Notes: generated by a model not told the origin, from the sequence alone. A DNA stretch of 55,924 nucleotides from an uncultured Bacteroidales bacterium (GCA_903828645.1 CAIKNA010000262.1:1-55924), one strand, 5' to 3'. Shown: positions 3,148 to 25,837, numbered from the stretch's first letter. A program made the numbers and translations.

Positions 3148-3196
3148 ACGATTTACGATTTACGATTTACGATTTACGATTGACGATTGACGATTG
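3148..3196. repeat. tandem heptamer array (ACGATTT)4(ACGATTG)3
   Basis: Seven contiguous 7-bp units read directly, starting one base after the arcC stop. Confidence 0.97.
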
Positions 3197-3200
3197 AAGT

Positions 3201-3242
3201 GTCACCCGTCACGCGTCACGTGTCACGTGTCACCCGTCACGT
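3201..3242. repeat. tandem heptamer array GTCACNN x6
   Basis: gtcaccc gtcacgc gtcacgt gtcacgt gtcaccc gtcacgt read directly. Confidence 0.97.
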
Positions 3243-3243
3243 T

Positions 3244-3501
3244 TTATTCTTCAAACACCATCTTCTTAACTTCCAGTCCCGCGACCTGCAGAAGCGCTTT
3301 TTCCAGTTTGACAAACTCTTCGCGGTTGCCGGTTAGTTCGAGGATGATCAGCCCGCTGCGGGCGCAAAAGTCGTCTTTGACTTCGTGGAGTCCGAGCCGT
3401 GTTTTGATGGTGCATCCAAACTTTGTCAGGATCGCCTGAACATCTGAAACTTCCGACACCCTGTCGGTGATGTGAATACCTAGAATCCAGATCTCTTTCA
3501 T
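3244..3501 (-). CDS. small ACT-like protein resembling the TM1266 family (putative iron-only hydrogenase system regulator), copy B
   Basis: 85 aa, collinear paralogue of 5195..5452 (MKE..I.G..ITDR....... .. LTK....IK.RLG.HEV...C.R.G..IL.L.G); last gene of the hydG run. Confidence 0.7.
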   Translation of the reverse strand: MKEIWILGIHITDRVSEVSDVQAILTKFGCTIKTRLGLHEVKDDFCARSGLIILELTGNREEFVKLEKALLQVAGLEVKKMVFEE

Positions 3502-3510
3502 GGTGTTAAT

Positions 3511-5184
3511 TCAAAGGGATATCTTGTTTTTTGATATTAAATTCCGGAAACGAACGGTAAAGGTTGTGCCGTTAAGACGGGATATCTCAATTTTACCGTC
3601 AAGTTGTTCAACCAGCAGCCTGACGATAAACATGCCCAGTGATTTTTCGGAATCCAGGGAAAATGAGGCGGGCAATCCGATGCCATTGTCCCCGATCATC
3701 AGTGCAAAGGTGTCTTCCTCATCTTTGCGCAGATTGACCTGGATTTCACCCTCCCGGTTGTTGGGAAAGGCATATTTGAATGCATTGGTCAGCAATTCAT
3801 TGGCGATCAGCCCCAGCGGCAGTGCTGTTTCAATGCTCACATCCGTGGGATCGAGCATTGTAACAAGGTTTACCCTGTGCCCGCTGAAAGTTCCGGTGAT
3901 GATGGTTGCCAGGGAATGCAGGTAAGCAGCAAGGGGTATGTGGGCCAGGTTTTCCGACCTGTAAAGGTGTTCATGAATCAGGGCCATCGAACGGATCCTC
4001 AATTCTATATCGCGAATGATCCGGCGCAACTCCGGATCCGTATTATTCCGGAGTTGAAGGTTGAGCAGGCTGATTACAATGGCAAGGTTATTCTTGACGC
4101 GGTGATGGATTTCACGCAACATGATCTCCTTTTGTTCCGCATTCTTCTGCTTCAGCTCTTCAACCTCTTTCTCTTTCGACCTGTCGCGAAGAATGGTCAT
4201 TACCTGTATCACTTCATGGTCTTTGTAGATGGGAACCCTGCGGATTTCAGCATGGATTTCCCGGTTCATGAGGGGCATCTTCTGCTCGGTGACCAGCATG
4301 GCGCCATGATCAAATACATGCTGAAGTTCACCTATAGTTACCTCAGTCATAAACGGATATACTTCCGTGATGAGTTTTCCCACTACCTCCACGGCCATAT
4401 CATGACTGATATGACTCTCTTTCATTGCAGAATTGATGATCACAATGCGGAACTGGCGGTCGACTACATAGATCCAGTCGGGAATTGAATCGAGTGTGTT
4501 ATGATATTGAATTTCTGATCTTTGAAAGGCCTCCACGGCCTGTTTGCGTTCGTTGATCTCCCCAAGCAGTTGCAAATTGTTTTTTGACAGGGCCTTCTGA
4601 TGTAAAAAATTTTTCCAGTTCAGGCTTCTGAACATGTAGGCCATCATGAAACCAATGGAATAGATGGCGATGACAAAGAAAAGATTGTTGAAATAGAAAA
4701 ACGGGCGTTGTTGAAAATTCAGGTTAAGGATATTTGCGACAGAAAAAGCGGCAATCTGGATCAGGCCGATGACGACAACGCTGCTGAAGGGCATCTTGTA
4801 AAAAACAAAAAAACCGATCACAACGAGCATCACCCAGGCAAAATAATACTCAGACCCTTTTTCCGAAAAGTTGGAGAACAAGCCAACATAACAGACTGCG
4901 AGGCAGATAAGCAGGTTCAGGATGATGTAAATTACATGAAGCCATTTGTGGAGGGGTTTGATGTAAGTCACAATAACCGACAGGATCATGATCGGGGAGA
5001 TGATCCAGAAACGGTTATAATATAGCTGTTCGGGTGAACCCGGAAAAAAAAAGATGTTGAACAGGGCAAAGCAGGAGAACATGGCAAGGGTAAGAAAGAG
5101 CCCGATGCGCATGGCCGGCAACGAGGAGATCATAAAGAACTCCTCGAATTCCTTTTTTAAATTTTTCCCTGAACGGCCGCTCAT
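3511..5184 (-). CDS. membrane-bound PAS sensor histidine kinase (HisKA_2/HATPase type)
   Basis: 557 aa; N-terminal TM segments, PAS-like region, phosphoacceptor REIHHRVKNNLAIVISLLNLQ, LGLIANELLTNAFKYAF N-box, GDNGIGLP. Confidence 0.9.
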   Translation of the reverse strand: MSGRSGKNLKKEFEEFFMISSLPAMRIGLFLTLAMFSCFALFNIFFFPGSPEQLYYNRFWIISPIMILSVIVTYIKPLHKWLHVIYIILNLLICLAVCYVGLFSNFSEKGSEYYFAWVMLVVIGFFVFYKMPFSSVVVIGLIQIAAFSVANILNLNFQQRPFFYFNNLFFVIAIYSIGFMMAYMFRSLNWKNFLHQKALSKNNLQLLGEINERKQAVEAFQRSEIQYHNTLDSIPDWIYVVDRQFRIVIINSAMKESHISHDMAVEVVGKLITEVYPFMTEVTIGELQHVFDHGAMLVTEQKMPLMNREIHAEIRRVPIYKDHEVIQVMTILRDRSKEKEVEELKQKNAEQKEIMLREIHHRVKNNLAIVISLLNLQLRNNTDPELRRIIRDIELRIRSMALIHEHLYRSENLAHIPLAAYLHSLATIITGTFSGHRVNLVTMLDPTDVSIETALPLGLIANELLTNAFKYAFPNNREGEIQVNLRKDEEDTFALMIGDNGIGLPASFSLDSEKSLGMFIVRLLVEQLDGKIEISRLNGTTFTVRFRNLISKNKISL

Positions 5185-5194
5185 TAAAACGGAT

Positions 5195-5452
5195 TTAAAC
5201 GGTGAAAACCATCCGCTGAATCTCCAAACCCCCGATCAGGGCAAGTTCATCTTCAAGTTTTTTACACTCTTCCATGCTGCCTGCAAGTTGCAGAATGACC
5301 ACGCCTACCCGGCTGCACACCTCTTCTGAGACTTCATGAAATCCCAGCCTTGATTTGATGACATGGGCATATTTTGTAAGTGCCATTTGCATCTGCCCTG
5401 CTTCCTTGATGCGGTCGGTGATAAGTAAACCGATGATTCTGAGTTCTTTCAT
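5195..5452 (-). CDS. small ACT-like protein resembling the TM1266 family, copy A
   Basis: 85 aa, directly downstream of hydG, paralogous to 3244..3501. Confidence 0.72.
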   Translation of the reverse strand: MKELRIIGLLITDRIKEAGQMQMALTKYAHVIKSRLGFHEVSEEVCSRVGVVILQLAGSMEECKKLEDELALIGGLEIQRMVFTV

Positions 5453-5463
5453 AACTGTTGGTT

Positions 5464-6915
5464 TCAGAAATAGAGGTCCCTTGTGCCATTTTTGATCTGT
5501 TCGATCTTGCCTGTCAGGGTTGTTTTGAATGATTCATCTTCGATTTCATCCAGCTTCTCCCTGATTAGTTCATATCCTTTGACTTTTGTCTCTGCCGGTG
5601 CATAATCTTCAAGGTATTCAGCCAGGGTCATCAAAGCATTGGGCTGGCAAAAGCGTTTGATAAACCCCGGAACGGAAAATTCCATAAAGTGTTCGCCGGT
5701 TCTGCCCAGGCGGTAGCAGGCAGTGCAAAACGAGGGGATATACCTGTGTTCGATCAGGTCGTCCATGATCTCATTCAGGCTCCGGTTATCATTGATCTGG
5801 AACTGTTCAAGGTCGATATCCTGGTCTTCGTTTTCTTTTCTTTTCGAATACCCTCCCATTTCAATGTTGGTGCCTCCGTCGATCTGCGACACACCGAATT
5901 GCATGATTTCATCGCGTACGGCCGCACTCTCCCTTGCGGTGAGGATAAGGCCTGTATAGGGAACCGCAAGGCGAAGAATGGCCACGAGCCGTGTGAATTC
6001 CGCATCGCTTACCATGTGCGACTGGTCTATATTCAGTTCAGATGCATACTGTATCCGGGGAAACGAGATGGTATGCGGACCGACATTGTACACGGCTTCA
6101 AAATGGTTCGTATGCCTCACAAGCCCGAGAACTTCAAACCGCCAGTCGTAAAGGCCGAAGAGTGCCCCGATGCCGACATCGTCGATCCCGGCTTCCTGCG
6201 CGCGGTCAAGCCCTGTGAGCCGCCAGTCAAAGTCTCTTTTCTTTCCGCCCAGGTGAACCTTTGCATAAGTATCCCGGTGATAGGTTTCCTGGAAAATCTG
6301 GTAGGTCCCGATTTTGGAATCCTTAATAATTCGGAAACCATCAATGTCCATGGGCGCCGCATTGATATTTACCCGCCTGATCTCACCCGGACCGCTCTTA
6401 ACCGAGTAAACAGTCCTGACCGATTCGGCAATGAAATCCGCATCATATCCGGGATGTTCCCCGTATACCAGGATAAGCCTCTTCTGACCTGTGTTTTCAA
6501 GGGCTTTCACTTGTGCAACCAGGTCGTCATGGTCGAGGGTGACCCTTTTAATCTTCTTGTTCGATGCTTTGAATCCGCAGTATGCACAATTGTTGGTGCA
6601 GTGGTTCCCGATATACAGCGGGGCAAACAGTACAATGCGCTGGCCATATACTTTTTCCTTCAGCGTCCGTGCTCCCTGTTTTATTTCTTCAATCAGGTCA
6701 GGATCTGTTGCATTGATCAATGTAGCAGTTTCAGCGAGGGTCAAACGCTGTTTATCCAGCGATTTGGCGATAACCTCCCTCACCTGTGCCTTGGTTGCGG
6801 GTGCAGTATTGAGATACCCCCATAATTCATCCGAATCAATAAAGGGAGTCATCCGCTGATCTTTAATCTTTAATTTTTCAGGCCTGAAAATCATAATCAG
6901 ATTGTTTAATGGCAA
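5464..6915 (-). CDS. hydG: [FeFe] hydrogenase H-cluster radical SAM maturase HydG
   Basis: 483 aa; radical SAM CTNNCAYCGF motif, LVYGEHPGYD, C-terminal CTACYRLGRTGEHFMEF cluster motif characteristic of HydG. Confidence 0.92.
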   Translation of the reverse strand: MPLNNLIMIFRPEKLKIKDQRMTPFIDSDELWGYLNTAPATKAQVREVIAKSLDKQRLTLAETATLINATDPDLIEEIKQGARTLKEKVYGQRIVLFAPLYIGNHCTNNCAYCGFKASNKKIKRVTLDHDDLVAQVKALENTGQKRLILVYGEHPGYDADFIAESVRTVYSVKSGPGEIRRVNINAAPMDIDGFRIIKDSKIGTYQIFQETYHRDTYAKVHLGGKKRDFDWRLTGLDRAQEAGIDDVGIGALFGLYDWRFEVLGLVRHTNHFEAVYNVGPHTISFPRIQYASELNIDQSHMVSDAEFTRLVAILRLAVPYTGLILTARESAAVRDEIMQFGVSQIDGGTNIEMGGYSKRKENEDQDIDLEQFQINDNRSLNEIMDDLIEHRYIPSFCTACYRLGRTGEHFMEFSVPGFIKRFCQPNALMTLAEYLEDYAPAETKVKGYELIREKLDEIEDESFKTTLTGKIEQIKNGTRDLYF

Positions 6916-6936
6916 AGGTACTGAAAATACACCAGT

Positions 6937-25809: not shown

Positions 25810-25837
25810 AAATCGTAAATCGTAAATCGTAAATCGT
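25810..25837. repeat. tandem heptamer array (AAATCGT)4, reverse complement of (ACGATTT)4
   Basis: Read directly; abuts the stop codon of the minus-strand gene 25841..26701. Confidence 0.97.

Follow-up and report, generated by a model that had tools for sequence, protein, structure and literature searches.

HydE, HydF and HydG by themselves mature [FeFe]-hydrogenase in heterologous systems, and HydG consumes tyrosine and cysteine as its substrates. The hand-over of the HydG product and the tuning of H-cluster synthesis are not fully settled. Among the small proteins linked to this system is the TM1266 family (TIGR03959), named 'iron-only hydrogenase system putative regulator'. Our literature search found TM1266-type genes present as annotations only, and found no paper on a second family of small proteins, CPF_0552 (NF052672). 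In C. thermocellum, a TM1266-type gene adjoins hydG and has a predicted Rex site (annotation; PMC8457756), while a T. neapolitana CO2-response expression table lists such a gene together with the Hyd maturases (annotation; PMC7039931). Many hyd operons include genes for ammonia-lyases, enzymes that supply the synthesis of H-cluster ligands (PMC11736057).

Gene layout and family membership at a Bacteroidales hydG locus

We analysed a window of 55,924 nucleotides from an uncultured Bacteroidales bacterium (GCA_903828645.1, CAIKNA010000262.1), in which hydG, two genes for 85-aa proteins (A and B) and a sensor kinase gene form one run on the minus strand (Table 1). The gaps hydG/A, A/kinase and kinase/B measure 11, 10 and 9 bp. 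The start of hydG is most likely the ATG at 6894 rather than position 6915, because relatives share the start and length of the resulting protein (MIFRPEKLKI in the window, MIFRPEKLK in relatives) and a predicted promoter −7 box lies directly upstream. This TAnnTTTG box precedes hydG in 16 of 16 relatives checked, and no further copy occurs on the operon strand from 6913 to 2900. Purifying selection acts on each of the four genes (dN/dS 0.015–0.14 in the comparisons where dS was unsaturated). Between the operon and arcC lie two short 7-bp tandem arrays (ACGATTT and GTCACGC; window 3148–3242), and similar 7-bp arrays occur in the window at 25810, 37522, 39478, 39706, 53931 and 55534.

Table 1. 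Features of the hydG operon, in window coordinates
Feature	Position	Strand	Description
hydG	5464..6894	(-)	476 aa; [FeFe]-hydrogenase H-cluster radical SAM maturase; longest ORF to 6915
A	5195..5452	(-)	85-aa CPF_0552-family ACT-fold (predicted) protein; position 1 after hydG
kinase	3511..5184	(-)	membrane PAS / HisKA_2 / HATPase_c sensor histidine kinase; lies between A and B
B	3244..3501	(-)	85-aa CPF_0552-family ACT-fold (predicted) protein; second of tandem
predicted Bacteroidota promoter -7 box TACCTTTG	6913..6920	(-)	TAnnTTTG upstream of hydG

With 499.7 bits against a cut-off of 312, HydG belongs fully to TIGR03955, and it has a CX3CX2C motif at aa 99 and a CX2CX22C motif at aa 390; its closest solved structure is 4wcx (E = 2.7e-130), followed by the HydG structure 4rtb. 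In the kinase, Pfam profiles identified HisKA_2 (E = 1.5e-24, 86.3 bits) and HATPase_c (E = 4.8e-12, 46.7 bits), both above their cut-offs, and PAS_4 (E = 5.2e-6). Its AlphaFold model was weak (pTM 0.39) and too poor for a fold search.

A and B share 49% identity and sit in one family tree. Neither is a TM1266 protein by the curated thresholds: against TIGR03959, B scored 23.5 and A 25.4 bits (cut-off 60.8), and against the TM1266-like Pfam family PF21699, 20.6 and 19.4 bits (gathering cut-off 27), while true TM1266-type genes examined in the same way passed the TM1266 cut-off. NF052672 fits instead, with B at 102.7 bits (cut-off 85) and A, over its full length, at 78.6 bits, just below that cut-off. 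All 51 homologues sampled match NF052672, and the A clade lies within the CPF_0552 tree. A and B are accordingly assigned, from their sequences, to CPF_0552, an uncharacterised sister family of TM1266. The AlphaFold model of B (pLDDT 92.5) has a beta-alpha-beta-beta-alpha-beta topology, and Foldseek searches with it returned TM1266 (2nzc) as the top match, together with the C-terminal domain of NikR, ACT domains and PII-like proteins.

Part of the original prediction for this operon is borne out. The coordinates and the 9–11 bp gaps of four minus-strand genes were reproduced; co-transcription, as read from sequence, agrees with the tight gaps, the gene order kept in relatives and a promoter box found only 5' of hydG; and the identities of hydG and of a membrane PAS/HisKA_2 kinase, the paralogy of the small proteins and, at the level of predicted structure, their ACT/ferredoxin-like fold all stand. 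Their proposed membership of TM1266 does not, since the profile scores fall far under the cut-offs.

Association of CPF_0552 with hydrogenase genes

The window had been described as lacking hydE, hydF and a hydrogenase, and profile matches agree: its contig carries no hydF and no hydrogenase, and the sole match there to the hydE model is hydG itself. The remainder of the genome supplies all three, with hydE on contig C7, hydF on C102 and six Fe_hyd_lg_C proteins on C122 and C336, three of which keep all H-cluster loops. A gene for a double-receiver protein follows hydE in this genome (L001, 2787–3605), and the hydE of several relatives has a LytTR response regulator gene beside it on the opposite strand (L259, 7124–7900). 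A second hydG, on contig C284 (L054, 1–1371 and 7100–8653), was rejected as a native copy. Contig C284 is likely a contaminant in the assembly, because this hydG is 95% identical to another lineage (L190) and sits in a duplicate of the window's syntenic block, whereas only one intact hydG passes the cut-off in other members of the family.

We then surveyed the neighbourhoods of CPF_0552 genes in GTDB genomes. Among the best 80 of 512 places, a sample that leans towards Bacteroidales and was drawn with an alignment that left out A copies and so favours B-like sequences, hydG was directly followed by a CPF_0552 gene in 47 and the ordered tandem hydG-A-B was present in 43. Outside the window's family, no kinase gene lies between the tandem members at these loci. 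In Armatimonadota (L237), a single copy is part of the order hydA-hydG-CPF_0552-aspartase-like (Lyase_1)-hydF-hydE, and Myxococcales (L249) have the same order with one additional gene between hydA and hydG. The aspartase-like neighbour agrees with the presence of ammonia-lyase genes in hyd operons (PMC11736057). In several phyla (Planctomycetes, Syntrophus, Fusobacteriaceae and others), the flanks examined around single-copy genes contained no hydrogenase gene. In other Bacteroidota, some true TM1266-type genes adjoin hydG (L131) or lie close to a CPF_0552 gene (L212).

Co-occurrence points the same way as gene order. Of 395 other Bacteroidota genomes, 24 encode a CPF_0552 protein over cut-off; HydG is present in 16 of these 24, where about 2 would be expected (Fisher p = 1.3e-14, with relatedness ignored), and an Fe_hyd_lg_C protein in 23. 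Eight sampled genomes combine CPF_0552 and Fe_hyd_lg_C but lack HydG, and in seven of these no HydF exceeds the cut-off either; this suggests an association that is stronger with the hydrogenase than with HydG. By gene content and order, a hydrogenase link of CPF_0552 is supported across phyla.

The genomes represented by L282–L291 (G093, G158, G190, G198, G222, G258, G310 and G337) are themselves unusual. These Bacteroidota assemblies are about 99% complete and encode [FeFe]-hydrogenase catalytic subunits with seemingly intact H-cluster loops, yet have no HydG; seven have no HydF over cut-off and five no HydE match. Two of the loci (L282 and L285) are big clusters in which NuoE/NuoF-like proteins, hydrogenase catalytic subunits, HydA-like sensors, histidine kinases and receivers alternate. 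Hydrogenases without detectable maturases merit a study of their own.

Inheritance of A, B and the kinase

The site EamA-hydG-...-arcC is syntenic in the window's family and was compared across 20 loci. The four-gene order hydG-A-kinase-B, whose conservation the original prediction had proposed as a check, was present in 13 of the 20, and hydG-A-B without the kinase in five. In one relative (G042; L194/L173, 772–2241), A and B flank an alkaline phosphatase gene in place of the kinase. Two loci retain hydG and the kinase with A and B gone (G008 and G028; L292 and L293), a third (G040) has hydG followed by a divergent kinase up to the contig end, and two (G039 and G041) have hydG alone; in G035, B stands alone at the site and hydG is elsewhere. 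A and B were thus lost together, with G035 as the only exception, and the kinase segregates independently. Four of the five hydG-bearing relatives that lack A and B (G008, G028, G039, G040 and G041) keep a strong Fe_hyd_lg_C protein, which argues that A and B are not required for maturation.

Mapped onto the HydG tree, the presence and absence of the kinase require 5 changes, which fit a single gain and four losses while A and B were retained. Kinase distances parallel HydG distances (r = 0.88), which also fits plain vertical inheritance. Its distribution marks the kinase gene as a lineage-specific insertion separating A from B. No consistent response-regulator partner emerged among the relatives: LytTR/REC genes lie beside hydE in some, without tracking the kinase. 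The proposal that A, the kinase and B form one sensor module is not supported, given A-B without kinase, kinase without A and B, and a different gene in the slot, and the independent gain and loss of the kinase argues against an obligate complex of the three.

Candidate roles of the A/B pair and comparison with known systems

Sequence conservation points to a family-specific feature. Across 77 non-redundant sequences, Arg35 and Gly37 are present in all 77, His39 in 76 and Cys46 in 72. His39 and Cys46 sit on the lengthened β2–β3 hairpin of CPF_0552 proteins, which looks like a putative ligand or metal site. We considered a NikR-type metal site and rejected it: the His/Cys spacing looks similar, but the hhalign probability is 2.3% and the hairpin length differs.

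In a tree of 124 family members, built from a short alignment and hence with modest support, the position-1 copies adjacent to hydG form one group (35 rows, support 90) and B-type copies a separate grouping. On this phylogeny, A and B are products of one old duplication, with A always beside hydG. The two have since changed in complementary ways. A copies have His39, Glu40, Cys46, Ser47 and Arg48 fixed in 34 of 34, and have lost Cys30 and mostly Glu55; in B copies, Cys30, Thr34 and Glu55 are fixed in 35 of 35 and positions 46–48 are variable; single-copy relatives keep Cys30, His39 and Cys46. Such a pattern would fit a homo-oligomer turned hetero-oligomer.

Building on family membership, the predicted fold, a single duplication, paired inheritance and the cross-phylum hydrogenase link, we infer that A and B are a putative stand-alone, modulatory ligand-binding pair of the [FeFe]-hydrogenase system, with the kinase as a separate later addition, and we give this reading an even chance of being right. 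A and B would assemble as a hetero-oligomer whose extended β2–β3 hairpin would hold a small ligand or a metal through His39 and Cys46, together with Arg35 and residue 30. The ligand state would then tune a protein of the hydrogenase system, be it the hydrogenase or HydG, with a modulatory, non-essential effect. The kinase would have joined the hydG operon later and separately, with no need for A or B, and its predicted co-transcription suggests a hydrogenase-related output and not a physical complex with them.

Two other roles seem unlikely to us, and to the same degree. A and B could be assembly factors that bind Fe, cysteine or the Fe(CO)2(CN) product of HydG via His39/Cys46 and pass it on, as their position immediately beside hydG, the single homologue within complete hydA-G-aspartase-F-E operons and the invariant His/Cys pair on a hairpin specific to this family would favour. 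However, the pair is dispensable, given that G039 and G041 keep hydG without it and G041 also retains a strong Fe_hyd_lg_C match; CPF_0552 also occurs in the eight genomes that lack HydG, of which seven have no HydF above the cut-off; HydE/F/G manage maturation alone in heterologous systems; and the metal ligands of NikR are not homologous (hhalign 2%). Alternatively, the ACT/PII-like predicted fold and the use of tyrosine and cysteine by HydG would suit ACT sensors that fit HydG flux to the supply of tyrosine, cysteine or aspartate. An aspartase adjoins the homologue in two phyla, and H-cluster ligand synthesis is fed by ammonia-lyases (PMC11736057), but the standard amino-acid site of ACT domains is not built on a conserved His/Cys pair, and CPF_0552 occurs in genomes without HydG.

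We regard two further proposals as more doubtful still. In the one closest to the original prediction, an A/B hetero-oligomer senses a metabolite or H-cluster status and controls the membrane kinase and a phosphorelay. Tight predicted co-transcription of A, kinase and B, their order in 13 of 20 family loci, purifying selection on the kinase, and the kinase and receiver genes within hydrogenase clusters of other Bacteroidota are in keeping with this; it is contradicted by the kinase without A/B at L292 and L293 and A/B without kinase elsewhere, the alkaline phosphatase gene in one relative, about one kinase gain and four losses on the HydG tree with A/B retained, and the want of a consistent response-regulator partner. 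The other would cast CPF_0552 as an accessory factor so far overlooked in the biogenesis or protection of the H-cluster. In Bacteroidales, an ancestral homo-oligomer would have given rise to the A/B hetero-oligomer, which would bind iron or an organometallic HydG product through complementary half-sites retained by the two copies (His39/Cys46/Ser47/Arg48 in A; Cys30/Thr34/Glu55 in B). Least probable of all is that A and B merely share the hydG promoter and have a function unrelated to hydrogenase, as the gene is often alone in other Bacteroidota (families f18 and f36) but is associated across phyla with hydG, hydE, hydF and hydA.

With a near-invariant His/Cys pair and a place inside complete hyd operons of unrelated phyla, CPF_0552, uncharacterised in the literature searched, is a concrete candidate where HydG-product hand-over and the tuning of H-cluster synthesis are concerned. 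The differing gene complements at the hydG site, with A, B and the kinase each present in some relatives and missing from others, provide a natural-knockout series. They also carry a warning that gene order in one genome is insufficient to name regulators or a kinase module.

Set against described systems, the HydG of the window is a full TIGR03955 match with both cluster motifs and nothing unusual, and the kinase shares the domain order membrane-PAS-HisKA_2-HATPase_c with other HisKA_2 PAS sensor kinases, differing in being set in a hydG operon. The C-terminal nickel-binding domain of NikR resembles the model of B (Foldseek TM-score about 0.7) and likewise has a His and a Cys on the β2–β3 hairpin, whereas A and B, at 85 aa and with an ACT fold only, have no ribbon-helix-helix DNA-binding domain. 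TM1266 (2nzc) is closer, with the same predicted fold (TM-score about 0.8) and a distant sequence kinship (E = 4e-7); both families are found next to hydG and can share one locus, although the β2–β3 hairpin of A and B is 4 residues longer and TM1266 has no equivalent of Cys46. Closest of all is the CPF_0552 family itself, which A and B match over their full length and from which the window differs in the duplication to diverged A and B beside hydG, with A just under the cut-off, and in the kinase gene placed between them.
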